Made by a program: the position numbers and the translations under genes. Positions 1-14,658 of a DNA stretch of 64,000 nucleotides are shown here, in pieces (position 1 is the stretch's first letter; the number at the start of each line of letters is the position of its first letter). The stretch is taken from the NCBI GenBank assembly GCA_022450045.1, contig JAKURD010000008.1, positions 50,564 to 114,563 of the forward strand, in the 5' to 3' direction. A model generated the notes under the pieces. It had not been told where the DNA came from and made no database searches. It saw only the letters and a list, made by a program, of their open reading frames with translations. This DNA comes from Gracilimonas sp. (GTDB taxonomy: Bacteria; Bacteroidota; Rhodothermia; Balneolales; Balneolaceae).

Positions 1-930
1 ATGAAACTATTAGATAACATCCCAACCCAAGAATGGGTAGATGCACGACAAGAATACCTGGGCGGAAGCGAAGTTGCTGCTGCACTTGGCAAGTCTCCCT
101 ACCAGACACCCTTTCAACTCTGGCTGCTGAAAACTGGACGCAGAGAGCCGCAAGGTTCTACGCCGATCACAGAGATGGGCCATATATTGGAGCCCGTCTG
201 CGCAGAGAAATTTACCGAAATGACCGGGCTGAAAGTCCGCAATATTTCCGAGCCTTATGAGCATCCGGAATACTCATTTCTGAGAGGAAACATCGACCGG
301 CAGATTGTAAGCTCGGAGAAGCATCCCGGACCGGGAATTTTGGAAATAAAGACCTCCTCATCGTTTCGTCTAAAAAATGAAGTTGATGCCTATCCACTCA
401 GTTGGGAGTATCAGATTCAACATTATCTCATGCTAACAGGCTACCAGTATGCGTACCTCCAAATCATGGAGAGAGATACGGGCGTATTCCACGACCCGAT
501 CTACATCGAGCGCAACGAAGAACTGATTGCCATCAACACCCAGAAAGTAATCGAATGGTGGGAAGATCATGTGATTGCCGATGTTCCACCGGATGCAATG
601 ACGGATGAAGATCTGCTCATTCTCTACCCGGACGCGAAAGAAGGAGAAACCGTAGAGGCCAATCCTCGTCTCTTTGCATACTACCAGCAGCTCCAGAAAG
701 TAAGAGATCGCCTTGATGAATATAAAACGCACAAGGAATCTTTGGAGCATCTGCTTAAGGAAGAGTTAGGCAATGCGGAGCATATGACCTTGGCTGGCCG
801 GAGGCTCTTAAGCTGGAAGAACTCTACCCAACGCCGGTTCAATACCACAACTTTCAAGAAAGAGTACCCGCAGCTCTACAAGGAGTTTCTTAAGGAATCC
901 ACAACCCGACGTTTTACCATTAATACTTAA
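1..930 (+). CDS. YqaJ-like phage-type recombination exonuclease
   Basis: Probable 5'-3' double-strand DNA exonuclease of the YqaJ / lambda-Exo group (PD-(D/E)XK fold), which resects ends to feed a single-strand annealing or binding partner. Visible motifs: GGSEVAAALG at residues 21-30, GHILEP at 60-65, the acidic GNID at 96-99, the catalytic ILEIK at 113-117 (E115, K117), and the QIQHY helix at 138-142, in the order expected for the family. The length of 309 aa is normal. The ATG is the first base of the window; the N-terminal text fits a complete protein, but an upstream start cannot be excluded. The next gene starts 11 bp downstream, so they are probably co-transcribed. Family assignment is firm; direct biochemical role is inferred from homologous phage recombination systems. 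Confidence 0.85.
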   Translation: MKLLDNIPTQEWVDARQEYLGGSEVAAALGKSPYQTPFQLWLLKTGRREPQGSTPITEMGHILEPVCAEKFTEMTGLKVRNISEPYEHPEYSFLRGNIDRQIVSSEKHPGPGILEIKTSSSFRLKNEVDAYPLSWEYQIQHYLMLTGYQYAYLQIMERDTGVFHDPIYIERNEELIAINTQKVIEWWEDHVIADVPPDAMTDEDLLILYPDAKEGETVEANPRLFAYYQQLQKVRDRLDEYKTHKESLEHLLKEELGNAEHMTLAGRRLLSWKNSTQRRFNTTTFKKEYPQLYKEFLKESTTRRFTINT

Positions 931-1486: not shown

Positions 1487-1519
1487 AAGAAGGAGTTTAA
1501 TCTCCTTCTTTCTTTTCTA
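1487..1519. terminator. Bidirectional hairpin terminator between convergent genes
   Basis: Arms AAGAAGGAG (1487-1495) and CTCCTTCTT (1502-1510) around a 6-nt loop, followed by a T-rich tail. It overlaps the stop codon of the minus-strand XRE gene and lies 36 bp after the upstream plus-strand stop, so it can serve both. Confidence 0.7.
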
Positions 1520-1748
1520 GTTCTTTTTCGATGAGACTCACAATAGCAGATGCTTTCGTTTCAAGGGCAGGAGCTAACTTGAGGAATACATCCAATGATG
1601 GAAGTCTCTCTCTTCGTTCAGTTCGATCAATCATGCTTCTGCTCAATCCAGATTGGGCTGCCAACTCCTCCTGAGAGAATCCTTTCTCTTCCCGTAGTCT
1701 CCGAATGACTATAGAAGTCGCTTCCAATAACTCTGCATCGTATTTCAT
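1497..1748 (-). CDS. Small XRE-family HTH repressor
   Basis: A DNA-binding regulator of the Xre/Cro type. The helix-turn-helix is clear: LREEKGFSQEELAAQSGLS, followed by RSMIDRTERRERLPSLDVF, covering nearly the whole protein. There is no effector domain. A longer frame to 1790 exists, but it would run into the inverted repeat at 1779-1802. I therefore prefer the ATG at 1748, giving 83 aa starting MKYDAELLEAT. The gene is divergent from the lipoprotein at 1829, with the palindrome lying between them, which suggests autoregulation and control of the neighbour. Similar solitary XRE proteins occur in phage remnants and toxin-antitoxin-like pairs; no toxin is recognisable here. Confidence 0.85.
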   Translation of the reverse strand: MKYDAELLEATSIVIRRLREEKGFSQEELAAQSGLSRSMIDRTERRERLPSLDVFLKLAPALETKASAIVSLIEKELEKKEGD

Positions 1749-1778
1749 GAAAGAAAGATGCAGTGAAAACAAATTTGC

Positions 1779-1802
1779 ATTTGCTGTCAACTGTCAGCAA
1801 AT
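1779..1802. promoter_or_regulatory. Perfect inverted repeat, candidate XRE operator
   Basis: Arms ATTTGCTG (1779-1786) and CAGCAAAT (1795-1802) are perfectly complementary across an 8-nt spacer. A direct repeat CTGTCA (1785-1790 region and 1791-1796) is embedded. It sits in the divergent intergenic region 31 bp upstream of the XRE start and 27 bp upstream of the lipoprotein ATG, the expected place for a Cro-type operator. Binding is inferred. Confidence 0.55.
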
Positions 1803-1828
1803 TAAACATTAATCATACTTTACAAGCC

Positions 1829-3034
1829 ATGAAAAACAGATTCAGAAAAATATCCGTAACAATTACTACTTCTATCGTGTTGGTATTTACTGCCTGCACC
1901 CCTTCAAATGAAGACATAAAATCCTATTTGTCAGAGGAAAATTATGAACGTGTCTATGAATACGTTCATAAACAGCTTGAAAATCACTCTACTCAGAATA
2001 ATCCAGCTTTTGATTCAGGACTTAGCGGACTGATTTTTTCTAATACGTCATATAGCTCAGAAGCAATTAATCTCTTTACAAGCTCTGAGTTTCAAGTTCC
2101 AGATAAAGGGCATTTAGCAACTAATCTTTGGGGAAAAGCCATCGAAAAGAAAACAGATATTCCTGAAGGTTTACATTCCTTTATCTATAAAAACCACCAA
2201 GCATATGGAAGCAGTATAGAACCAAAAATTCAGAAATATTATCAGGCCGATTCCTTATTTCAACCGTTACTAATTGAAGAGATTCGTTCAATTAGCCTGT
2301 GGGATAAACCCGATTATATGAAACTTGATTGGCTTATATCTTTAACAGACCTCAGTAATCCACATGACTATGTTAAAGAGATTATTGCTTTAAAAAGTAA
2401 GGAATCAAATATTAATAAGGTTTTCAGTGACAGCTTAGAAGATAACCAACTCTGGATCAATGATTATTCTAGTCGAATTGATAGTTTAAATGCCATATTT
2501 CCATCAATTGAAAAAAGATACGAGGAACAATATCCTAAATACGATGATCTTAACTCAGCTGTTTTTCTTGTGAGTTCATTCATTGGAGATTTTCAGGATG
2601 GCGAAATTAATTACGAGGCATATGAAGCAACAATTTATAGTACTACTGGAGGTGAGGATCAAGTTTTCTTTACTGAATATGAAACCTTCATACTCTTGAC
2701 TACTGAAAAAAGCTTTTCAGGTCGAGGTAGATATCGTTTATCGTATTATTTGAAAGATGAAATTCCAGTTAGGCTAAAAGAAGATTATGGTGGTTTTAAA
2801 ACTACTATGAAAGTAGTTAAACACGTTGGTGAAAGAGAATTTGATGATCTTCTACATAGTAGTACTCAAGTATCTTCTATTAATTCTAAAATTGAGCTCT
2901 ATTCAAGATTATTAAATCATTTCCAGTCGGAGAAAGAACAAATAGAACTAGAGCGTACTGCCAGAATTAAAGAATTAAATGCAGAAATCGTATTACTTGA
3001 TAAAAGGCTCAAGGACTGGGCTAAAGATAACTAA
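1829..3034 (+). CDS. Lipoprotein of unknown function
   Basis: A 401-aa protein starting MKNRFRKISV, with a hydrophobic segment ending VFTAC, a plausible lipobox with C23 as lipidated residue. It is therefore probably a membrane-anchored periplasmic or outer-membrane lipoprotein. A frame opening at 1763 would put 22 non-signal residues in front, so I chose the ATG at 1829. The body matches no family I recognise; it is rich in Ser, Tyr, Asp and Glu. The last 45 residues form a likely coiled coil (HFQSEKEQIELERTARIKEL region). The codon usage is AT-rich compared with the flanking recombination genes, suggesting recent acquisition. It is divergent from the XRE gene and shares its palindrome. Confidence 0.7.
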   Translation: MKNRFRKISVTITTSIVLVFTACTPSNEDIKSYLSEENYERVYEYVHKQLENHSTQNNPAFDSGLSGLIFSNTSYSSEAINLFTSSEFQVPDKGHLATNLWGKAIEKKTDIPEGLHSFIYKNHQAYGSSIEPKIQKYYQADSLFQPLLIEEIRSISLWDKPDYMKLDWLISLTDLSNPHDYVKEIIALKSKESNINKVFSDSLEDNQLWINDYSSRIDSLNAIFPSIEKRYEEQYPKYDDLNSAVFLVSSFIGDFQDGEINYEAYEATIYSTTGGEDQVFFTEYETFILLTTEKSFSGRGRYRLSYYLKDEIPVRLKEDYGGFKTTMKVVKHVGEREFDDLLHSSTQVSSINSKIELYSRLLNHFQSEKEQIELERTARIKELNAEIVLLDKRLKDWAKDN

Positions 3035-3038
3035 CTCT

Positions 3039-3065
3039 AAAAGGGAAGCTTCGGCTTCTCTTTTT
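3039..3065 (+). terminator. Rho-independent terminator after lipoprotein gene
   Basis: Hairpin with stem GAAGC / GCTTC and a TTCG tetraloop, flanked by an A-run on the 5' side and TCTTTTT on the 3' side. It begins 5 bp after the stop codon of the lipoprotein gene. Confidence 0.8.
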
Positions 3066-3091
3066 ACACTTAATTTTAAATCATTTGGGGT

Positions 3092-3526
3092 ATGTTCAAA
3101 TTCAGAAAAAAAGATACTAAGGCAAAGAATGTCAGAAAGAGTAAGTTTTTTAAAAGCGCGAAAACTAAGGCAAAGGATTACCTTAATTCTCCTGACAAAA
3201 TTCACCGGCTAATTGATAAGGCCAAGAAAAAAGCAAACAGAAGAAACAGTCCTTTAAAAGAGTTTTGGGAATCGCTGATGACATGCTTCCGGCTGCTTAA
3301 AGCATATGCCAAAGGAACCTATCGGGAGATACCCTGGGAATCACTAGTATTAATTCTGGCTTCAGTTATTTACTTTGTCATGCCCATAGATTTGATACCA
3401 GATTTTATCGTTGGCATCGGGCTCTTAGACGACGCTTCCCTGTTGGCATGGGCAATGGCTTCTTTTGCTGTTGACATTGAGCGCTTCGTGCAGTGGGAGA
3501 AAGAAAATAAAACAGAATATGAATAA
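3092..3526 (+). CDS. DUF1232 (YkvA-type) membrane protein
   Basis: A 144-aa protein with a very basic N-terminal third (Lys/Arg-rich, residues 1-55) and a C-terminal DUF1232 core at about residues 85-125. That core has the hallmark YFVMPIDLIPDF followed by GLLDDASLLAWA, the pattern that defines the family. One or two membrane-embedded hydrophobic segments are visible (SLVLILASVIYFV and the DASLLAWAMASF region). The molecular function of DUF1232 proteins is not established. The stop codon overlaps the start of the next gene, so the two are translationally coupled. The basic N-terminal extension is longer than in typical family members. Confidence 0.85.
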   Translation: MFKFRKKDTKAKNVRKSKFFKSAKTKAKDYLNSPDKIHRLIDKAKKKANRRNSPLKEFWESLMTCFRLLKAYAKGTYREIPWESLVLILASVIYFVMPIDLIPDFIVGIGLLDDASLLAWAMASFAVDIERFVQWEKENKTEYE

Positions 3527-4159: not shown

Positions 4160-4266
4160 ATGCTCTGTTTCTACCACCATTAACAATGCAGTAAATTTCC
4201 TTCCGAATAACCATTATCTTACATAGGTTATTAACGAGCTGTTAATCCTGAATCTATATTTACTGA

Positions 4267-6225
4267 ATGGTTATCACCCATATTGTTGACGACTTTTTAT
4301 TTGAACTCTTCCCAGAAGCGGAAAATGATACCGAAAAGCTGACCTCTATTCTGAAGCGGTATTATACCTTGGGGCCTTTCGAGCCGGAAGTGGAACTCAA
4401 AGACTCAACTATCGAAGTCTCCATAGATGTGGATCGCATCAATGCGGATAAGGGCAAGTTTGATAAGCTGGTAAAGTATGCGGAATCCGGAAAGCTGGAT
4501 AAAGCCATTGAACTGGCAGATGAACTTATTGAAAACGCTCCAAACATCAGTGAATACCACCGGGTGCGTGGACAAGCCTACTCTGAAAAAGGAGACCAGG
4601 AAGAAGCTATCAATTCTTTGATTGATGCCCTCAAATGGAATCCTAAGAACGAGTGGGCATTGCTAATGATCGGTAACATCTATGCCCGATTCAAACAGGA
4701 CATGGAAACGGCTCTGAAGTATTTTGATAAGGTGTTGGAAGTGAAACCGGATGATTACCATGCTTTAAACAACATTGGAGTTCAGCTTTTTGAAACTGGT
4801 CGAAAAGAGGAAGCCTTGGAATACTTGAACAAGGCACTGGAAGCTAATCCTAAATACCCAAACACCTTGTTTGCTTTTGCTATGATTGCCTATCGGGAGA
4901 ATGATTACTCTAAGGCGTTTGAGTATAGCACCAAGTCACTTCGCAATCAGGATAAGAAAGACGAATTATACGATAACGCCGTTAAAATGGCGCTCTCCAG
5001 TGCAAAGGAATTAACCGGAGAGATAGATGGACTTGGTATCGCTGAAGAATACATGCAATCACTGTCTGATCGTTTTGATGTGGACATTAAGATGGAAGCA
5101 GATCCTGAAATTCCTACGGCTGCGACTATGCAATATGCGGAGGTATATCAGCGAAACCATCACTTAATAAAGTATAAGCCCAATCATCCGGCTGTTGCTC
5201 ATTTGGTGGTGCACGAACTTATGCATCTTGAGCTTCGGGAAGAAGCCAGAGTGGAGAATGTAAACAAACTGTTTACTACGACCGATTCTACTAAAGCTTC
5301 TTTCCGGCTGACATTCAAGAAAGATGCCGAACGACTGAAAAAGAAAGGCGTACCTGAATCCAATGTCCGGGGTTTTATGGATTCTATGGCTGACGGGCTG
5401 AACCGACAAGTATTCAACACGCCTATTGATGTGTTCATAGAAGACCGGATTTATAACCGTTTTGAAGAAATTAGATCATTCCAATTGCTTTCACTTCATG
5501 CCAATACTATGGAAGGAGCTGATGCAAACACCCGACCTGATATCATCAAGAATGCTCCCAATAAGGTCATTTCTGCTTCAACAACCTACGGTTTGGTTCA
5601 CGCCTTACAGCTGAAGGATTTGTTTGGTCTTGATCTTATTGGTGAATTCAAACCGAAACGCAAAGAAGTTGAAACGGCCACCAAGTTCTATGAAGAATAC
5701 CTGGAACACAAGGATGATAAGGAAGCCGGTATCGAATACGACCTGATTCAGTTTTGGGCTGAAGATCTGAACCTTGACCGGTATTTTAATCTCGTTGACG
5801 AGAAGAGCCAGAATAATTCAGCAGATTCGGTACTGGACAAGATAGAAAGTGATCCTTACGGATTGGATGAAGATGATCCTTCCAAAGACCGGAAAATGAA
5901 AACCTTCATAGAGAAGCATGGCGGGGATGATATAAACATGGCTGTGGCGATGTATATGGTTGGAGCTCTCCAGTATTTTGAAGGTATGGACAAGTCCAAA
6001 ATCAAAGAGATTGCCTTTGATATTGCCAAAGTGGGCACTGCCGGTATTGATCCCAAAAAAGATGGGTATCGAATTCCAAGTATTCCTGACAGTAATTTTT
6101 CTGGATATCAGACCTTAGCTTACTTTTATGTAAGTTGGACATTAGCTATACCAGAAATGGTTCCTAGCTTGGGGTTATCCTTTAAAGAGGAATATGAAGT
6201 CGCTTGCGAGTTCAACTCACTTTAA
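4267..6225 (+). CDS. TPR protein with HExxH zinc-peptidase-like domain
   Basis: A 652-aa soluble protein. Residues about 70-225 hold several tetratricopeptide repeats (RGQAYSEKGDQEEAINSLID, YARFKQDMETALKYFDKVLE, NNIGVQLFETGRKEEALEYL). A zincin motif HELMH with the flank AVAHLVVHELMHLELREEA lies at about residues 315-319. A later acidic segment, DVFIEDRIYNRFEE, about 75 residues on could supply a further metal ligand, but that is inference. There is no signal peptide, so it is probably cytoplasmic. It lies 118 bp upstream of the restriction-modification operon in the same orientation, with base composition nearer to the host genes than to that operon. I do not recognise an exact family; a regulatory or self-processing protease is possible. 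Confidence 0.7.
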   Translation: MVITHIVDDFLFELFPEAENDTEKLTSILKRYYTLGPFEPEVELKDSTIEVSIDVDRINADKGKFDKLVKYAESGKLDKAIELADELIENAPNISEYHRVRGQAYSEKGDQEEAINSLIDALKWNPKNEWALLMIGNIYARFKQDMETALKYFDKVLEVKPDDYHALNNIGVQLFETGRKEEALEYLNKALEANPKYPNTLFAFAMIAYRENDYSKAFEYSTKSLRNQDKKDELYDNAVKMALSSAKELTGEIDGLGIAEEYMQSLSDRFDVDIKMEADPEIPTAATMQYAEVYQRNHHLIKYKPNHPAVAHLVVHELMHLELREEARVENVNKLFTTTDSTKASFRLTFKKDAERLKKKGVPESNVRGFMDSMADGLNRQVFNTPIDVFIEDRIYNRFEEIRSFQLLSLHANTMEGADANTRPDIIKNAPNKVISASTTYGLVHALQLKDLFGLDLIGEFKPKRKEVETATKFYEEYLEHKDDKEAGIEYDLIQFWAEDLNLDRYFNLVDEKSQNNSADSVLDKIESDPYGLDEDDPSKDRKMKTFIEKHGGDDINMAVAMYMVGALQYFEGMDKSKIKEIAFDIAKVGTAGIDPKKDGYRIPSIPDSNFSGYQTLAYFYVSWTLAIPEMVPSLGLSFKEEYEVACEFNSL

Positions 6226-6233
6226 AAAAATTA

Positions 6234-6263
6234 TGTCATATAAAGGTGACATAGCGGTGTCAC
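6234..6263. promoter_or_regulatory. Candidate operator upstream of R-M operon
   Basis: Three half-sites of a TGTCA/TGACA motif: TGTCA at 6234-6238, then GTGACA (6246-6251) and TGTCAC (6258-6263) forming an inverted repeat with a 6-nt spacer. An AT-rich TATAAATG-type stretch follows at 6264-6271. It lies 80-110 bp upstream of the first methyltransferase start. This arrangement is typical of a dimer-binding regulator. No controller protein is encoded in the operon, so binding by one of the methyltransferases or an outside regulator is inference. Confidence 0.45.
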
Positions 6264-6343
6264 TATAAATGTATATTTTAAGTCGAAATTATTTAGAGCC
6301 AATTAAATAAAAAGTACTCTTAATCCAACAAATAATCCGATAA

Positions 6344-7684
6344 ATGGAATCTGGAATTCAAAAGAAAATTTTTAAGAATAGTTTAATTAAAGATGAAGAA
6401 AAGAGGTCAATATTAAATTACTATCTCGATCTAGAAAATAGAATTTCAATCAATTCTCGTGAAAATTCTGATCAAGGAACACCTGTGAATTTTCAATTAG
6501 CAAAAAAATTTCCAAGGCATAGATGGTATACATATAAGGAAGGGTTTTCTCCAGTATTTGTTAGCGACTTTATTAACCGATTTAGAAAGAGTGAGAGTGA
6601 TGTAATTTTTGATCCTTTTGGAGGAATCGGTACATCTGTATTAGAAGGAGCTATGAAGGGGTATAATTCTTATTCTAATGATATAAATGGGCTCAGTAAT
6701 TATATTGCGAATATTAAAACTGCCAATTATTCGGAAAAGGATTTATCTGATATAAAAAAAGCCTGTGATGAATTTATTAACAACGAACTCACAGAAAATG
6801 CTTCACCACCTGACCATGACACAGTATTAAATTATTTCGACCAAAAAGTGCTAGAAAACATTCTAAGCATTCAAGCATGGATTAATAATTTAGATTCTTC
6901 CAAAACAAGAAATCTATTTAATCTGTCACTAATTACAAACTTAGAGTACTTTTCATCTCATAGAAAAGATGGTAATGGAGTTAAAAGGAAATCCAATCAT
7001 GTCCCAATTACAAAATTATCAGATACCAAAGAAATATTAATTAAAAATATCGAACTATTTATTAAAGACATTGAATCAACGAAAATTTCGGGTAATGGGA
7101 ATATCTTAACCCAAAGTTCATTTGATAAATACGAGCTTCCAGAAAAAGCAGATTTAGTGATTACTTCACCACCCTACGCTAACTGTTTTGACTATAGCAA
7201 AGTATACTTAGTTGAGTTATGGTTTAGTGGGATTTTTAAAAATAAAATGGATCAGAAAATCTTTAGGGAGTCTTCAATTATCAGCCATGTTCACTACAAT
7301 TGGGATAAAAGACATGAGAATTTTGGCAATGAATTTGTAAATAGTGACATTTACAATTACTTAAGCAATAAAGACTTATGGGACAAAAAAATCCCTAAAA
7401 TGGTTACAGGGTATTTTTCAGATATGGGAAAGGTATTGACAGAAATGTCTCATAACCTAAATAAAGGTGCAACCGTTGGGATGGTAGTTGGAAATAGTGT
7501 TTATGCTGGGCTTCCTATTGCAACTGATTTACTAATTACAGAAATGGCAAAAGACGTTGGATATGAAGTAGAAGGTATTGAAGTTTATAGACAACTTAAT
7601 TCATCTCCTCAGCAAATGAAAAAACTCACTACAGAAGAGAAAAAATTCTTACGCGAAAGTTTAATAATATTAAAATGGAAATGA
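6344..7684 (+). CDS. SPPY-type DNA methyltransferase (first of pair)
   Basis: Amino-methyltransferase of a restriction-modification system, transferring methyl from S-adenosylmethionine to N4 of cytosine or N6 of adenine. The SAM-binding motif FDPFGGIGTS is at residues 89-98 and the catalytic TSPPYANCFDY at 274-284. The TSPPY form is most frequent among N4-cytosine enzymes, so the target base is uncertain. About 175 residues separate the two motifs, room for a target-recognition domain between them (alpha-like order). The gene is AT-rich with Lys/Asn/Ile-rich coding. Its last 10 bases overlap the second methyltransferase gene, starting a four-gene overlapping operon. Confidence 0.88.
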   Translation: MESGIQKKIFKNSLIKDEEKRSILNYYLDLENRISINSRENSDQGTPVNFQLAKKFPRHRWYTYKEGFSPVFVSDFINRFRKSESDVIFDPFGGIGTSVLEGAMKGYNSYSNDINGLSNYIANIKTANYSEKDLSDIKKACDEFINNELTENASPPDHDTVLNYFDQKVLENILSIQAWINNLDSSKTRNLFNLSLITNLEYFSSHRKDGNGVKRKSNHVPITKLSDTKEILIKNIELFIKDIESTKISGNGNILTQSSFDKYELPEKADLVITSPPYANCFDYSKVYLVELWFSGIFKNKMDQKIFRESSIISHVHYNWDKRHENFGNEFVNSDIYNYLSNKDLWDKKIPKMVTGYFSDMGKVLTEMSHNLNKGATVGMVVGNSVYAGLPIATDLLITEMAKDVGYEVEGIEVYRQLNSSPQQMKKLTTEEKKFLRESLIILKWK

Positions 7685-8976
7685 CAGAAGTATCAGTTGA
7701 TAATAATTCGTTAAGCGGTGGCTTTAATCCATATGAATTAAATTGGGATGAAACTGTAAGTTTTCCAAGCACAAGAAGTTTAATGGAATATGGCAATAAG
7801 ATTTACAATAGATATCCTGCCAGAAGTATATTTCTTGTACCAAGAGCAATTTTCTACCAAAATCATCTGAAGAATAAAAAGTTAAATATACTCGACCCTT
7901 ACATGGGATCAGGTACAACAGCTGTTGAGGCTAGCCAGTTTAAATTTAACATATTTGGTGTAGAAATGGATCCTTTTGCTAGGTTGATTTCTGAAGTCAG
8001 TATAATGAGATTCAACGATATAGAAAAAAATGAGCTACGTAAGCTACTAGAGAAAATCAAAAAAAATTGGAAAAATCATACAATAAATGATGATTTATAT
8101 CCTGACCTTAAAAATGTTGAATATTGGTTTGATGATAAGATTTTTAAAGACTTACTGAGGTTGAAATCGTATATATACGATACAATAACAAATGAAAACT
8201 ATTTGAAATTTTTCAAAGTTACTTTTGCTGATTGTATTAAACCGACCTCAAAGATGGAGAGACAATCTACCAAACCTTATATTTCTTCTAAGTATGAAAA
8301 GAAAATTAAACCTGTAATTGAATCTTTCGAGTACAGTTTTAAAAAACATTTGAAAGCCCTGAGTCAATATGAGGTTGATAATGAATATAACCCAAAGATA
8401 AATTGGATTGGAAATGATGCTTCATCATTTCAATCTGAGGAAACTATTGATGTAGCAATTACATCTCCTCCATACTTAAATGCATTTGATTATACTCAAA
8501 TTATCAAGGTGGCAAGTTCTTGGGTGGGAACTTTAACAAACCCAGATATTAAAGAGCTAAGGTCAATTCAAGTTGGTCATCACTATCGCAGGGAAGTTAA
8601 ATTTCATAATGAAGCAATTAATGCTTTTAAAACCTTTTATGATAAATTGTTATCCCTTGACAAAGATAAAACAAGATCAAGCCCTCAGAAATTAGCAGAT
8701 ACTTGCCTTGCATATTTCAATGATATTTATTCAAATCTAGAAAATGTTTATAGATCTTTAAAAAAGGGAGGAGAATATCATATGATTTTAGGTGATAATA
8801 CAATTAAAGGGATAGAGATTCCTACACATAAATTAATTGCAAATTTAGCCCAAAAAACTGGATTTGATTGGTTCGGTTATTACAAGTACCCTATTAAAGA
8901 TCATAGAACTTCAATCCCCCGTAATGGCAAAGGTGGGAAAATTAAATATGAATATATTATAAGCTTAAGAAAATGA
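7675..8976 (+). CDS. SPPY-type DNA methyltransferase (second of pair)
   Basis: A second amino-methyltransferase, 433 aa. The SAM-binding motif ILDPYMGSGTTAVEA is centred on D74-G80 and the catalytic TSPPYLNAFDY is at residues 263-273. The motif order is the same as in its upstream neighbour, but overall similarity outside the motifs is low, so this is not a recent duplication. Paired methyltransferases usually modify the two strands of an asymmetric site. The start ATG at 7675 (alternative at 7681) overlaps the end of the first methyltransferase. The stop TGA overlaps the ATG of the AAA+ gene (ATGA). No target-recognition domain can be assigned by eye. Confidence 0.88.
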   Translation: MEMTEVSVDNNSLSGGFNPYELNWDETVSFPSTRSLMEYGNKIYNRYPARSIFLVPRAIFYQNHLKNKKLNILDPYMGSGTTAVEASQFKFNIFGVEMDPFARLISEVSIMRFNDIEKNELRKLLEKIKKNWKNHTINDDLYPDLKNVEYWFDDKIFKDLLRLKSYIYDTITNENYLKFFKVTFADCIKPTSKMERQSTKPYISSKYEKKIKPVIESFEYSFKKHLKALSQYEVDNEYNPKINWIGNDASSFQSEETIDVAITSPPYLNAFDYTQIIKVASSWVGTLTNPDIKELRSIQVGHHYRREVKFHNEAINAFKTFYDKLLSLDKDKTRSSPQKLADTCLAYFNDIYSNLENVYRSLKKGGEYHMILGDNTIKGIEIPTHKLIANLAQKTGFDWFGYYKYPIKDHRTSIPRNGKGGKIKYEYIISLRK

Positions 8977-10892
8977 TTCAAGGATATCCTGATGTCTTAT
9001 TTGAAAAGTGGGTCGATTTCGTTGACAAAATTTTGAACTATGAAGGAGCAATTGATCCAAATTCAAGTTCTACTGATCAATTGAATACGATATTTGAAAG
9101 TTCGGGCTCAAATTACCCCACAAGAGCTAATGAATTTTATAAAATGGGTCTTTTAAGTAAACCATTAACAGGCTCTGATAGTGCTCTTGTTCCATTCCTT
9201 TCTAAAGAAATGATTCTATCACATCTAGGGGCATCTGCTTATCTAGTCTACAAAGCAAAGGGGAATTTGAACCCAACACTTTTTTTAAAAGCACATAGTG
9301 CATTATCCACTATTAGCCTATTGAAAGTAAGTGAGACATATAATGGCATTACATTTTCTCTCTTAAGTTTATTTAAATTTTTATTAGACCTTTTTCCTGT
9401 TGGAGACAATAGATATATACTTCACTTGAGATACCTTGCTGCTGCAATGTTTTGTGAGATTCAACATGATCCAGGAACTTTATATAATTCCTTCATAGAA
9501 AAGGAGAAGCCAACCTTACGAATAATACAAACAGGCGATAATGAAATTCTTGCTACTTTTGAATCATCAAATGACATAGCTAATGCAATAGAAACAGATG
9601 TTCCTTTCGATGGGATTATAAATGCTAGAAAATCTAATTATTTTATTGGGAATCATAATGCCTCAGAACTTAGAGGTTTTTATAGCAAGGCAATACATGA
9701 TTTTGACGAAGTTTTGGATAACTTTTATAAATATGAAATTGACAACCTGAATTCACCTGAAATTGTAAGTTTTTATGATAACAAAACGGACCCAATTGAA
9801 TTTTTAAACCACCTTTTTAGTCAAAATAAATTAGAAGCCAATTATGGAACTATGATTGAATCTTTAAAAAAAGCTTGTCTCGAAGCAACTGAGGTTTTAG
9901 ATATCTCTTCAAATGTTAGAGAAACAGAGAATACTGGAGTCCAAAAAAATATAATCTTCTTTGGCCCTCCCGGAACAGGAAAGTCTTATAAAGTTGATGA
10001 GATAACAAAAAATGTACCGGAGTCAAGAAAAAGAAGAGTGACTTTCCATCCAAGTTATGATTACACATCATTCGTAGGAGGTTACAAACCAATTTCAGAA
10101 AAAAATAATGATACTGGTGAAGAGGAAATTAAATACAAGTTCGCCCCTCAGACATTTACTAAGATTCTTGTAGATGCTTGGAATGATACGGAAGGCAAAG
10201 ATTACTACTTAATAATTGAAGAAATAAATAGAGGTAACTCAGCAGAAATTTTTGGTGACTTATTTCAGCTATTAGATAGAGACTCAAATTATGCGATATC
10301 ACCATCTGAAGATCTAAAAGAATTTCTATCTGGTGAGTTAAATGAAGTAGCAAAAGAAATTCTTAAAGATGGCAAACTGTATTTACCATCGAACTTATAT
10401 ATATATGCTACTATGAATACTTCTGATCAATCTTTGTACCCAATAGATAGTGCGTTTAAGAGAAGGTGGGATTGGGTTTATGTTCCAATTAATTATAGTG
10501 AAAATAATCCCGATGGTTCTCCTAATTTGTCCTATAACTATAAAGTTAGGTTAAATGAAGAAGAGTATTTTTCTTGGATTAGTTTCTTGAAAGAGGTGAA
10601 TAAGAAAATTATTGATAATCCCGGTTTAGGTATGGATAAGTGTGTGGGTAACTACTTCATTAAACCAAATAAAGAGTATATCCAATTAGATGATTTTGTA
10701 CATAAGGTTATTTTTTATTTATGGAATGATGTTTTCAAAGATGAGGAAGACACAATTTTTGACAACATTACTTATGAAGATTTTTTCCCTGTAAATAATG
10801 TTGGCCAGGTAAATGTGAAGGAAATTCTTTTAAACCTTGATATCGATATAATAAATATTACTGAGACTTTGAGTGATGAAAGTTCTAATTGA
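8973..10892 (+). CDS. McrB-like AAA+ restriction NTPase
   Basis: Motor subunit of the restriction module, 639 aa. The N-terminal half (1-320) is unassigned and probably contacts DNA. The AAA+ core begins with Walker A GPPGTGKS at 331-338. The McrB-type RRVTFHPSYDYTSFVGGYKP block follows, then Walker B LIIEEINRGN (E416, E417). The sensor region MNTSDQS is at 481-487 and a FKRRW arginine finger lies behind it. In E. coli McrB the corresponding signature is MNTAD and the enzyme uses GTP; here D485 is kept, but nucleotide preference cannot be told. It overlaps both neighbours. In LlaJI and BsuMI systems an equivalent protein drives a nuclease encoded next to it. Confidence 0.88.
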   Translation: MIQGYPDVLFEKWVDFVDKILNYEGAIDPNSSSTDQLNTIFESSGSNYPTRANEFYKMGLLSKPLTGSDSALVPFLSKEMILSHLGASAYLVYKAKGNLNPTLFLKAHSALSTISLLKVSETYNGITFSLLSLFKFLLDLFPVGDNRYILHLRYLAAAMFCEIQHDPGTLYNSFIEKEKPTLRIIQTGDNEILATFESSNDIANAIETDVPFDGIINARKSNYFIGNHNASELRGFYSKAIHDFDEVLDNFYKYEIDNLNSPEIVSFYDNKTDPIEFLNHLFSQNKLEANYGTMIESLKKACLEATEVLDISSNVRETENTGVQKNIIFFGPPGTGKSYKVDEITKNVPESRKRRVTFHPSYDYTSFVGGYKPISEKNNDTGEEEIKYKFAPQTFTKILVDAWNDTEGKDYYLIIEEINRGNSAEIFGDLFQLLDRDSNYAISPSEDLKEFLSGELNEVAKEILKDGKLYLPSNLYIYATMNTSDQSLYPIDSAFKRRWDWVYVPINYSENNPDGSPNLSYNYKVRLNEEEYFSWISFLKEVNKKIIDNPGLGMDKCVGNYFIKPNKEYIQLDDFVHKVIFYLWNDVFKDEEDTIFDNITYEDFFPVNNVGQVNVKEILLNLDIDIINITETLSDESSN

Positions 10893-12573
10893 AGGGCAAA
10901 ATTATGATCTAGATTTACTAAAAAGATTATTCAATAGTGACCGTGATCAATTTTATACTATCAACCAAAATGAGGGAAAAATAAGTACTGTTGGTTACTA
11001 CCATAATTTTGATTCGAATGAAATCATCTACATGTTACCAAAAGTATTTATGCGTGATGAAGAGATCACGGTTTTTGGTTTTAAAAAAGAGCATTTAGTT
11101 GAGGATTCCTTTTCTCCAAATATTAAAAAAGGAGATGAATACAATTGGGTACGTCACTTATCAATAATATTTTATAAAAGCTTATCCGAGTATAAAAAAA
11201 GAATTAAGGTTCAGAATATCATAAAAGAACAAGAAGTTCCAAATCTTAGGAGCAATCTTGGAAATAAGGAATTTAGTTACTTAGACTTACTACTAAGCTT
11301 TGTCAACTACTATAAAAAGAACAAGCTTCAAATAACTTTTATTAACAAAGAGAACAAGAATAGAAGACCTAATAAGGTTAATTGGGAGAAAACTGTTATG
11401 AACAGTAGACCTATTCTTACAAAGAATAAAGCTCCCATATACCAAACCGTTTATAGTAAAAGCAAAGAAATAAATAATGAAGAAGACTTATTTAGAGTAT
11501 ACTTTTCAATATTAAATTTTTTTGACAAGGAACATGCTTTAAATATCAATATCCCACCTTCGATAGAATATGTGCCTCATAGAAAATTTAAAAAGAAGAA
11601 AAACACATTATACAAACTCTTAAAAAAAATTAGATCAAACTATTTTTCTGATAGCTTAAAAAGAATGGTGAGGCTCTGTGAACTTTATTTTAGCATTGAG
11701 GAAAATGCCTCTGTCAAAAATAGAACTACTGAATTTATTATTGTTGATAACTACAATCTTGTGTTTGAAGACATGATAGATAAGCTTGTTGCAACTGGGG
11801 AAGATGAATTGCTAAATGAGTATCAAAATTCAATAATTCCTGAAATGAAAGTAAATAGAGATGGTAAAATAATTGACCATATCTACGACTATCAATCCTT
11901 AATTGATACAAGTAATATCTTCTATATTGGTGATTCCAAATACTATAAACCTGAGAATAAGGCTAGTACTATATCAAAATATAAACAGATTACTTACGCA
12001 AAGAACATTATCCAATACAACATTGATCTTTTCAACACTGAAGGATCTGCTCTTTTCAATACTCGTTATAGAGACAAAATTACCGAAGGGTATAATATTA
12101 CACCAAACTTTTTTATTTATGGGTTCATATCGGATTACCGCAATTATACTGATCCACAGATCTCTGAACGAGGAGAGCCAACTAATGCATTTCATTTTAA
12201 ATACCGCCTTTTCGACCGTGATACATTATTTATTCTCAAATACAGAATAAACTTTCTTTTTGTGATTAATGCATACGTTGAAATGAACAATCAACGACTA
12301 AGAATTTTTAGAAGAAATATTAAAGTAAAATTCAGGAAAAATTTTATTGACTATTTCAACGGACAGAGTGGTGGATTTGAGTACTCTTTTTATCGAAAAA
12401 AATTCGAATCATCAGAATCAGAAGATCTTGACAGTTTTATTAATCAAAATTTTAAAGTTTTAAATGGTAAATGTATCCTGACAAAGGATAATTTTCTCAT
12501 AATAGCAAAGCATTGTGAGGATAACTCATTGGATGGAATACTCGGCAGTTTTCAAAAATTTGAACTTTCTTAA
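10876..12573 (+). CDS. LlaJI-family restriction endonuclease subunit
   Basis: Nuclease partner of the McrB-like protein, 565 aa from the ATG at 10876 (a GTG at 10873 is directly upstream). An N-terminal block EIIYMLPKVF near residues 49-58 matches the signature region of the LlaJI endonuclease family as I remember it. The C-terminal half has a PD-(D/E)XK-like site: IIDHIYDY (D334) followed by YIGDSKYYK (D353, K355). The acidic residue before Lys is Asp-Ser-Lys rather than Glu-x-Lys. The gene overlaps the end of the AAA+ gene by 17 bp. It is the last gene of the AT-rich operon; 66 bp separate it from the convergent Y-family polymerase gene. Confidence 0.82.
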   Translation: MKVLIEGQNYDLDLLKRLFNSDRDQFYTINQNEGKISTVGYYHNFDSNEIIYMLPKVFMRDEEITVFGFKKEHLVEDSFSPNIKKGDEYNWVRHLSIIFYKSLSEYKKRIKVQNIIKEQEVPNLRSNLGNKEFSYLDLLLSFVNYYKKNKLQITFINKENKNRRPNKVNWEKTVMNSRPILTKNKAPIYQTVYSKSKEINNEEDLFRVYFSILNFFDKEHALNINIPPSIEYVPHRKFKKKKNTLYKLLKKIRSNYFSDSLKRMVRLCELYFSIEENASVKNRTTEFIIVDNYNLVFEDMIDKLVATGEDELLNEYQNSIIPEMKVNRDGKIIDHIYDYQSLIDTSNIFYIGDSKYYKPENKASTISKYKQITYAKNIIQYNIDLFNTEGSALFNTRYRDKITEGYNITPNFFIYGFISDYRNYTDPQISERGEPTNAFHFKYRLFDRDTLFILKYRINFLFVINAYVEMNNQRLRIFRRNIKVKFRKNFIDYFNGQSGGFEYSFYRKKFESSESEDLDSFINQNFKVLNGKCILTKDNFLIIAKHCEDNSLDGILGSFQKFELS

Positions 12574-12602
12574 CCTTCCTGATTTTTTTAAATACCAAAT
12601 TT

Positions 12603-12640
12603 TTATATCTCGAATGGCTTCCTATTTAAGTGATTTAAAT
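12603..12640 (-). pseudogene. Decayed fragment related to gene at 14655-15002
   Basis: A 17-base exact match (12605-12621) to 14704-14720 continues as a diverged match. Read on the minus strand the fragment gives KSLK-stop-EAIRD, against KSLKEEAIRD in the intact gene. This is a relic of a paralogue lying directly against the right end of the R-M operon. Confidence 0.6.
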
Positions 12641-13983
12641 CAATTATTCCTCTCCAAAAAATGTGTATTCCCCTCCACTCTTGTGAACGTATTTGCCTTT
12701 GTGATATACTGACGTCCAAACCGGTATTTAATCTCATCCACGGCCTTGGTTCTGGCCACTTTCTCCTGGTCATCCTGAAAGAATGCGTTGAGCTGTTGTG
12801 TCTTGTCGATCTCTTTGGTGCCAAGACAGATATTGCGTATTTCAATACCGTTCTCGCAGGCTTTTTTTATAGCCGGTTCTACTTTGTCCATTAGGGCTTG
12901 GTACACGTAGTCGTCTATATTTGTATGAGCCTGGGTTACAAATCGAAATCCTACTCCCGGTGAGTTTGGATCATTGTAGCCAAACATACCTGAGAAGGAG
13001 TTGGCCCGGATGCCATGAGCTCGCATCCGGTAACAAATCTGCTGGACGGCGATCGCATATTCTCCTTTTATACGTTCCAACTCTGTAGATCCCTCAGAGA
13101 ATGTATGCCCATAACTAAATCCTTGCTTAGGCTCGTAGTTTTCAGAGATCTCTTCCATCACGCGTCCTTGATCTTGTCCAGTAATGGTTTGGTAGAGCAT
13201 CTTTCCAAAATTGGCTCCGAATAGTCGCATGAATGTTTTCTCATTTCCACGCTGCGCTACGTCTCCAATAGTCTTGTAACCTTCTGCTAAAATATGCTCG
13301 TGTCGCTTTCGGCCCACGCCCCAGACTTCATCAAGTTCCAAGGGCCATACCTGATTCCGTTCATCGTCATCGTTTAGAATCAGGGTTCTGCCTTTAGGTT
13401 TATCCAGACTGCTGCAAAGCTTGGCGTAAGTTTTAGATCGGGCTATTCCCACGGCTCCCAATAAATGCGTGTCCTCGTATATTCTTTCCTGGAGGCGTTT
13501 GGCAAAGGCTTCGATCTCTTCTCTGGGTTTGTCCAACAGAAAATCCACTTCCATGAAATACTCATCCATGCTGTACCTCTCAATCACAGGAGCAAACTCT
13601 TTGAAGATGTAGTACACCTGCTCGGAGATGGCTTTGTAGGAATCATAATCCACCTGCTTCATGCAAACATGTGGACATAATTGCCAAGCTTCGTAAGCAC
13701 TCATTCCTGTTTTGATGCCAAATTTCCGGGCTTCATAGGAAGCCGTGGCTACAATGCCCTTTACTTGTCCGTTCTGTTTTCTCCAGCCTCCAACTATGAG
13801 CGGTAGCCCGTACATTTTATTCCATAGCTGTTCGATTTGAGCGTAAAAACAGGCGAAGTCGAAATGCAGATATAGTCTCGGCTTTCTGGAGGTATGCTGA
13901 TGCTCAGGATAAATGGTGTTGTAGAGGGTAATTCTGTGAACATCTTGCTCTGGCTGGTATGGATGGGACTTCTTTTTGGACAT
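12640..13983 (-). CDS. Y-family (UmuC/DinB-like) translesion DNA polymerase
   Basis: Error-prone polymerase for bypass of DNA lesions, 447 aa. Catalytic blocks: LHFDFACFYAQIEQ at the N-terminus (the first conserved Asp is kept, the second acidic position of the usual DxD is Ala), VGGWR and VATASYEARKFGIKTGM for the nucleotide-contact region, and YSMDEYFMEVDF with the SxDE pair. A helix-hairpin-helix-like VWGVGRKRHEHILAEGYKTIGDVAQ and a little-finger domain follow. It shares a 69-bp divergent promoter region with the gene at 14053, containing an inverted repeat that could be a damage-response operator. The end of the gene touches the decayed fragment beside the R-M operon. Confidence 0.88.
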   Translation of the reverse strand: MSKKKSHPYQPEQDVHRITLYNTIYPEHQHTSRKPRLYLHFDFACFYAQIEQLWNKMYGLPLIVGGWRKQNGQVKGIVATASYEARKFGIKTGMSAYEAWQLCPHVCMKQVDYDSYKAISEQVYYIFKEFAPVIERYSMDEYFMEVDFLLDKPREEIEAFAKRLQERIYEDTHLLGAVGIARSKTYAKLCSSLDKPKGRTLILNDDDERNQVWPLELDEVWGVGRKRHEHILAEGYKTIGDVAQRGNEKTFMRLFGANFGKMLYQTITGQDQGRVMEEISENYEPKQGFSYGHTFSEGSTELERIKGEYAIAVQQICYRMRAHGIRANSFSGMFGYNDPNSPGVGFRFVTQAHTNIDDYVYQALMDKVEPAIKKACENGIEIRNICLGTKEIDKTQQLNAFFQDDQEKVARTKAVDEIKYRFGRQYITKANTFTRVEGNTHFLERNN

Positions 13984-13992
13984 ATATTTTCT

Positions 13993-14026
13993 CTTATACT
14001 TGATATGTAAAATATATGTGTATAAG
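13993..14026. promoter_or_regulatory. Inverted repeat in divergent polymerase promoter
   Basis: Arms CTTATAC (13993-13999) and GTATAAG (14020-14026) with a 20-nt AT-rich spacer lie between the divergently read polymerase and its neighbour. The position suggests a shared LexA-type or other dimeric operator. Binding is inferred, and the arms also resemble -10 elements. Confidence 0.4.
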
Positions 14027-14052
14027 TTACTCTGACCAAAAAATTCTTGGTC

Positions 14053-14658
14053 ATGAACAAATTCCCTTTAGTAGAAATGTTGGCGTTTTTCTCTCGGTAT
14101 AAGCCGGTCCCTCATCCCGACTGGAGATTGCCGTATCGCAGGGATGTGAAGCAGGTGCGATCGTGTTTTACCAAAACTCAGGGAGGAGTCACTCGTTCTT
14201 ACTATAAGCTGGAAACCAAACAGGGAGAACTGATAACCTTGGTATTCAATGAACAGGACCTGCTCTGGTCATTGGATAAATCTGAAGGGTTTGAAGATCA
14301 AGCCATCGACCGGGTGCTGGTATTAATGGAGCGACACAAACACAAGTCTTCAAGAGCGCACCGCATTATCCCATACCGATTTGAATTACTTCCAGAGGAG
14401 CTAGCTAAATTAAAGTATGATGGTACAGAAAAGCCCCTTATCAAGCGTGTGCAACCGTACCGTTTTCTGCGAAGTAAAACACCGTACCAAGTAATTGCTA
14501 TTCCAACTCAGCACATGGAAAACACCATGATCACCAAAGAGCTGAACTATGTTATAGAAGCAGACAACGAACGCTTTTTTCATCTTGTGTACATACTTGA
14601 CAAGCTGGACTGGAGATTTATGCAGGAAGTGGATGAGGAGTTCTTTTTTGTGCGTTAG
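14053..14658 (+). CDS. Unknown protein divergent from Y-family polymerase
   Basis: A 201-aa soluble protein starting MNKFPLVEML at the ATG (a TTG at 14047 is less likely). It is basic, with several Arg/Lys-rich stretches (LPYRRDVKQVRSCF, MERHKHKSSRAHRIIPYRF, LIKRVQPYRFLRSK), compatible with nucleic-acid binding. I recognise no catalytic motif. Its divergent pairing with a translesion polymerase, and an SRAP-domain gene 350 bp beyond its end, suggests a role in the same DNA-damage response. This is context only. The stop codon overlaps by 4 bp the end of the convergent gene at 14655. Confidence 0.65.
   Translation: MNKFPLVEMLAFFSRYKPVPHPDWRLPYRRDVKQVRSCFTKTQGGVTRSYYKLETKQGELITLVFNEQDLLWSLDKSEGFEDQAIDRVLVLMERHKHKSSRAHRIIPYRFELLPEELAKLKYDGTEKPLIKRVQPYRFLRSKTPYQVIAIPTQHMENTMITKELNYVIEADNERFFHLVYILDKLDWRFMQEVDEEFFFVR

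Follow-up and report, generated by a model that had tools for sequence, protein, structure and literature searches.

The window analysed here is a stretch of 64,000 nucleotides from Gracilimonas sp., and at positions 6344-12573 the ORF listing with translations gives four overlapping open reading frames on the + strand. M1 (6344..7684, 446 aa) and M2 (7675..8976, 433 aa) are SPPY amino-methyltransferase genes, R1 (8973-10892, 639 aa) encodes an McrB-like AAA+ protein, and R2 (10873-12573) encodes a McrC/LlaJI-type nuclease assigned from its family, a candidate active site and a structural model. The R2 frame comprises 566 aa counted from the GTG at 10873; its homologues begin MKILIEG, and the likelier start is therefore the ATG at 10876. 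The overlaps of 10, 4 and 17 bp (20 bp for the last with the GTG start) agree with those in the first-pass annotation of this DNA, and the four-gene pattern is far beyond chance. A promoter scan stayed below shuffled sequence (24 found vs a shuffled mean of 35.1), and the terminator scan is weak (4 found vs a shuffled mean of 2.4).

Motif I precedes TSPPY in both methyltransferases (near residue 90 and at 274-278, respectively, in M1), and M2 is a diverged paralogue of M1, with 25% identity across 357 aligned columns. PADLOC models of Type II methyltransferases align with both over nearly their full length (E 9e-74 for M1 and 6e-54 for M2), in accordance with the first-pass view of two SPPY enzymes. 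The Pfam N6_N4_Mtase search proposed there bears this out for M2 (43.1 bits, cut-off 26.7), whereas M1 falls just short with 24.3 bits. Identity as C5 or RNA methylases is contradicted by the Pfam and PADLOC family matches, and C5 matches are absent, which upholds the earlier distinction of these amino-methyltransferases from C5 enzymes; with SPPY motifs, N6_N4_Mtase and no C5 family match, the operon also falls outside LlaJI in the narrow sense, where both methylases are C5. Queried against PDB sequences, M1 and M2 returned only weak, irrelevant matches. Judged by family, the two enzymes would place methyl groups on exocyclic amino groups, at N4 of cytosine or N6 of adenine, and each probably serves one strand of an asymmetric site.

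M1 matches at E <= 1e-10 occur in 47 of 395 phylum genomes, own genome included, and R1/R2 homologues are absent beside SPPY methylases in 20 stretches taken from these genomes (19 from other genomes, one from its own) and in two IMG/VR loci, within the bases covered. L082 is a 110-kb IMG/VR contig (IMGVR_UViG_3300033067_001837) with paired homologues at 4941-7497 (M1 41% identical, M2 346 bits) and phage-type replication genes close by; R1/R2 were not found in the 14 kb examined around the pair. This phage-like lone pair is possibly a means of counter-restriction against systems like that of the window. L084 carries a further M1/M2-type pair downstream of an HNH protein, likewise without R1/R2. 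These lone pairs bear on how M1 and M2 divide their work, because they indicate that the pairing is not tied to the engine. Together with the paralogy of the two proteins, they would fit joint action on one strand or as a heterodimer, or action on two different sites instead of one enzyme per strand. We consider this possible but unlikely, since two methylases are known to serve a single asymmetric site in LlaJI (PMC1459862 and PMC12707154; these and all papers below are cited from partial texts).

The second half of R1 (9931..10892) is an McrB-like AAA+ domain with Walker A (GPPGTGKS), EEINRGN and MNTSD, the last of NxxD type; an alignment of 36 R1 homologues shows no variation in EEINRGN and MNTSD and a single variable position in GPPGTGKS. 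The first-pass reading of these motifs as McrB-like is matched by Pfam AAA_5 (E 2e-9), by solved McrB chains (E 8e-20 to 1e-17) and by the McrB model NF008457, whose score (E 1e-18) is yet far under the equivalog cut-off. The LlaJI/LlaI/BsuMI type has an McrB-like AAA subunit in which both Walker A and NxxD occur, as here. The N-terminal domain (8973..9930, approximately 320 residues) is the part for which we propose a site-reading role, based on LlaJI (excerpts of PMC1459862) and on co-variation in relatives. Modelling of R1 succeeded for the AAA part but was poor for the N-terminal part (pLDDT mostly <60), so that a DNA-binding fold is not recognisable there. Relatives of this domain were restricted to its own genome among 395 phylum genomes, with none in IMG/VR, plasmids, phages or the PDB, although pattern-based IMG/VR scans may overlook relatives: the M2 scan missed L082 despite its M2 homologue. 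Among the R1 matches listed, none extends before residue 256.

R2 by itself gave nothing relevant in Pfam, NCBIfam, PADLOC or PDB sequences, nor did a 33-row R2 profile run on the PDB sequences, and an IMG/VR scan with R2 gave no match. However, Pfam PF09563 (RE_LlaJI) is matched by 3 of the 31 R2-family members scanned (E <= 0.01), and the R2 of L044 exceeds its curated cut-off (31.3 vs 23.6 bits). Counted from the GTG at 10873, the residues invariant in 33 R2 homologues are D335, D354-S-K356, K371-Q372, Y375 and the LPK of the MLPKVF block; D335, D354-S-K356 and Q372 form a candidate active site (+ strand, codons near 11875, 11932-11940 and 11986). In an AlphaFold model built with 33 rows (mean pLDDT 78.3), D335 lies before strand 336-341, D354 and K356 are on strand 348-357, and Q372 is in helix 366-381, an order of elements expected for a PD-(D/E)XK core. 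Among 220 PDB matches with E <= 10, a single one has E <= 0.001, namely chain A of 9a5m (E 1e-11, probability 1.00, TM 0.42/0.49, 14% identity), a model of YdjA-YdiS, which we take to be the BsuMI subunits. This chain should be YdjA, because with 465 residues it is not the 343-aa McrB-like BsuMI subunit (PMC1459862, in part).

The matches to RE_LlaJI in relatives and to the YdjA-YdiS fold are the reason why filing the operon with LlaJI and BsuMI holds, and they agree with the LlaJI/McrB-type restriction engine assigned in the first pass. The accompanying claim of a LlaJI-type nuclease with a PD-(D/E)XK centre stands through family and fold and not through the window R2 alone. By itself this protein does fail to match LlaJI, which had been named as grounds for rejection, and the objection is lifted only by its relatives and its fold.

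An R1 scan of 84,980 genomes identified 49 related loci, mostly in Bacteroidota, to which the Pedobacter sp. plasmid pA27BH1 (R2 46.7% identical to the window R2) adds one. As in the window, an R2 homologue adjoins R1 in all 50; in L032 it is split, and in L037 the contig end truncates it. A methylase lies upstream of R1 in 45 of the 50 loci, and the sets vary: C5 + C5 in 11, DPPY + C5 in 10, one C5 seen in 21, Eco57I-type + C5 in one (L034) and D12 (N6-adenine type) only in two, namely two genes in L005 and one in L010, whose contig begins 482 bp upstream. No methylase was seen in two loci (L018 and L032), and the region is cut by contig ends in three (L015, L042 and L049). Amino-methylases are thus combined with C5 enzymes in 11 loci, and an SPPY pair was found in none of the 50. 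The typing is mostly motif-based; Pfam, run on 16 methylase candidates or neighbours, assigned six to C5, three to D12 and one each to N6_N4 and Eco57I. Among the 395 phylum genomes R2 occurs in six, including its own; two of the five others repeat L022 and L045, and two of the three new loci (the third is L162) carry DPPY + C5 or one C5. The SPPY + SPPY version with a LlaJI-type engine is unseen elsewhere among the sampled relatives. The first-pass annotation had gone further and taken the combination of this engine with amino-methylases as undescribed, which is not supported: the LlaI/BsuMI/LlaJI family, with its methylase pairs, is in print (PMC2614495, in part), and D12 methylases occur in two of the 50 loci.

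Some of these loci show other departures. In seven, an extra ORF of 221-288 aa separates the C5 methylase(s) from R1 (L026:5693-6358, L028:6629-7306, L036:6497-7198, L038:6523-7227, L043:6791-7522, L045:6160-6828 and L047:6688-7554), and the two that were scanned, those of L036 and L047, have no Pfam family. In Flavobacterium covae (L032:8906-10590), where no upstream methylase was seen, R2 is split over two ORFs. L018:7701-10679 holds R1/R2 with an N-terminal part of 80 aa and no methylase seen, and its R2 shares 89% identity with the L019 R2.

Sequence comparison of the relatives suggests that the methylases and the R1 N-terminal domain are swapped together, with the AAA motor and R2 constant. 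A quick R2 tree unites L002/L003, L005, L006 and L010 (SH-aLRT 100). Nine pairs among them differ in methylase set; their R2 proteins share 75-89% and their AAA parts 65-87% identity, yet their N-terminal domains gave no BLAST match at E 0.01; in the same-set pair L002/L003 these domains are 88% identical. Co-variation was assessed over 44 systems (946 pairs), after exclusion of 7 of 51 in which no methylase was seen, a contig edge intervened, R2 was cut or the N-terminal part was <60 aa, and with the domain limit set by rule at 25 residues before Walker A. N-terminal and methylase similarity correlate with a Pearson coefficient of 0.74, R2 and methylase similarity with 0.17 (Spearman 0.09), and R2 and AAA similarity with 0.93 (Spearman 0.91). 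The rank correlation for the N-terminal domain is modest (Spearman 0.29 vs 0.09 for R2), which counts against a cassette tie. A partial Mantel test relating the N-terminal domain to the methylases, with R2 controlled for, gave an r of 0.73, and none of 2000 permutations was as high. R2 is similar in 216 pairs: the N-terminal domains are dissimilar in 184 of these, with a methylase similarity of 0.15, and similar in 12, with a methylase similarity of 0.87. L006/L040 is the converse case (N-terminal domains 0.59 and methylases 0.79 of self score, R2 just 0.40). N-terminal domain and methylase set do not correspond one to one, since with a loose cut-off (E 1e-5) 28 of 48 N-terminal domains link as one group with several methylase sets inside; every locus with typed methylases in that group has a C5 enzyme.

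The limits of the exchanged segment can be followed at the DNA level. Homology restarts just 5' of Walker A in six of six different-cassette pairs, and a leader ending shortly before the first methylase is common to four of them (e.g., 255 bp at 91% in L005/L010 and 230 bp at 83% in L002/L005) and absent in L002/L006 and L003/L006. L018 and L160 occupy the same site (3.2 kb at 95%), and in L018 the methylases are missing, as is most of the N-terminal domain; here the cassette is lost or replaced as a unit. On the quick R2 tree, a minimum of 17 switches between methylase sets (11 when three classes are used) was counted over 45 labelled rows, with long branches, that of the window included, flagged. 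The haste of this tree and its long branches, the relatedness that Mantel tests leave behind and the rule-set domain limits would all allow the co-variation to reflect shared ancestry or loose BLAST scoring instead of functional exchange. We think this improbable in view of near-identical R2 proteins joined to unrelated N-terminal domains and other methylases, of the sharp DNA breakpoints, and of L006/L040, which share the N-terminal domain and the methylases with an R2 similarity of only 0.40.

Against the other 43 systems the window N-terminal domain reaches at best 0.06 of its self score, and the methylases reach 0.05. As this cassette is without a relative, its modularity is argued by analogy with the cassettes of the relatives, which it would resemble in behaviour. 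With this proviso, we favour, with fair though not high confidence, a plug-and-play organisation of LlaJI-type systems: methylase(s) and R1 N-terminal domain would form a recombining specificity cassette between the leader and AAA, and the constant motor and nuclease would accept C5, N6-adenine or SPPY chemistry. The window would be a member that has an SPPY pair and an N-terminal domain with no counterpart in the searches; phages would bear such a methylase pair without the nuclease. In limited open-licence literature no description was found of cassette exchange or of an SPPY pair with a LlaJI-type engine.

Comparison with known systems places the operon more closely. The LlaI methylase is an N6-adenine, FokI-like enzyme, and the BsuMI methylases are C5 enzymes. 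PMC2614495 unites LlaI, BsuMI and LlaJI in a single type II family that is related to McrBC and has pairs of methyltransferases. LlaJI, from the Lactococcus plasmid pNP40 and also from H. pylori, has like the window four genes in the order two methylases, an R1 with an McrB-like AAA part and a unique N-terminal half, and an R2 containing PD-(D/E)XK, and its R1 is the specificity subunit (PMC1459862). Its methylases are C5, whereas the self-marking enzymes of the window, as SPPY amino-methylases, would be of a different chemical class. N-terminal domains of B3, YTH and other kinds have been described (PMC7680126 and PMC12707154), and H. pylori LlaJI R1 reads DNA via a B3 domain (PMC7680126); for the window R1 the poor N-terminal model gives no assignable fold, and the searches found no homologue of the domain. 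LlaI (Lactococcus plasmid pTR2030) shares the McrBC relationship and the methylase pair and restricts unmodified DNA (PMC2614495 and PMC3874153). LlaI, with a 337-aa McrB homologue, and BsuMI (Bacillus subtilis), with one of 343 aa, each have three restriction genes (PMC1459862); the window has two and an R1 of 639 aa, and so departs from this form despite the resemblance of its R2 model to 9a5m chain A. PcaI (Pectobacterium) shares an McrB/McrC-like restriction pair with a methylase and acts on unmethylated DNA (PMC8989522), with a single Dcm-like C5 methylase in place of the SPPY pair. An association with methylases is noted across McrB branches, and a separate paper is announced (PMC11090510).

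McrBC of type IV shares the AAA+ motor, a GTPase in McrBC, with its NxxD motif, but has no methylase of its own and targets modified DNA, whereas the window has two overlapping methylase genes, as in the LlaJI/LlaI/BsuMI type. A modification-dependent R1/R2 that reads foreign modified DNA beside two unrelated methyltransferase genes would accord with the closeness of the R1 AAA part to McrB, with the frequency of McrB-like genes, present in 38 of 244 genomes of the class, and with the two loci in which no methylase was seen, yet it is very improbable given the gene overlaps within a single operon, the 45 of 50 loci with a methylase upstream of R1 (three more are cut by contig ends), the grouping of R2 with LlaJI/BsuMI and not McrC by profile and fold, and the shared site of L018 and methylase-bearing L160, which makes L018 look like a derivative. 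A plain type IV system is likewise rejected.

We are thus rather confident that the four genes form a type II-like R-M operon of the LlaJI/LlaI/BsuMI kind. By analogy with these systems, the R1 N-terminal domain would read sites left unmodified by M1 and M2, the R1 AAA+ ring, probably GTP-driven like McrB, would engage R2, and the PD-(D/E)XK centre of R2 would cut the DNA. M1, M2 and the N-terminal part of R1 would act as one exchangeable specificity cassette on a constant engine (R1 AAA and R2). Neither GTPase nor cleavage was seen with LlaJI in vitro, according to the available part of PMC1459862, which counts against this mechanism.

If the cassette proposal is true, a single recombination step can give a motor-driven restriction enzyme both a new recognition domain and a new protective chemistry. 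HsdS swapping in type I systems would be the counterpart of such an exchange in McrB-type type II systems. A specificity-setting domain is so far established only for LlaJI R1, and the natural pairs with nearly the same engine (L002/L005/L006/L010) let that role be tested directly; they also bear on how unmodified DNA sets off the AAA motor. The window itself adds less, a further chemistry in a family already known.

The operon was likely acquired, since R2 is present in its own genome alone among 244 of the class and absent from the other 243. Its GC content (0.28-0.32) fits acquisition, yet low values recur elsewhere in the window (0.33-0.36 at 1501-3500). Outside the system lie a TPR protein gene (4267..6225, + strand) and a Y-family (ImpB/MucB) polymerase gene (12640..13983, - strand), each with a 92% identical copy on contig C23 of the same assembly. 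Alignment of that region (L147, G000:C23:121000-140000) with window positions 4193-14652 shows the flank copies, at 92% protein identity, bracketing other R-M-like cargo: an Eco57I-type methylase, a T5orf172/ResIII helicase protein, an S8 protease (subtilase) and an IS1595-type zinc ribbon. Duplicate flanks with differing cargo are possibly the mark of a defence hotspot or of a co-binned relative; with a stated assembly contamination of 3.15%, C23 may derive from such a relative. Upstream of the operon, window positions 1-930 hold a YqaJ-like viral recombinase gene, which gives the region a mobile-element flavour.
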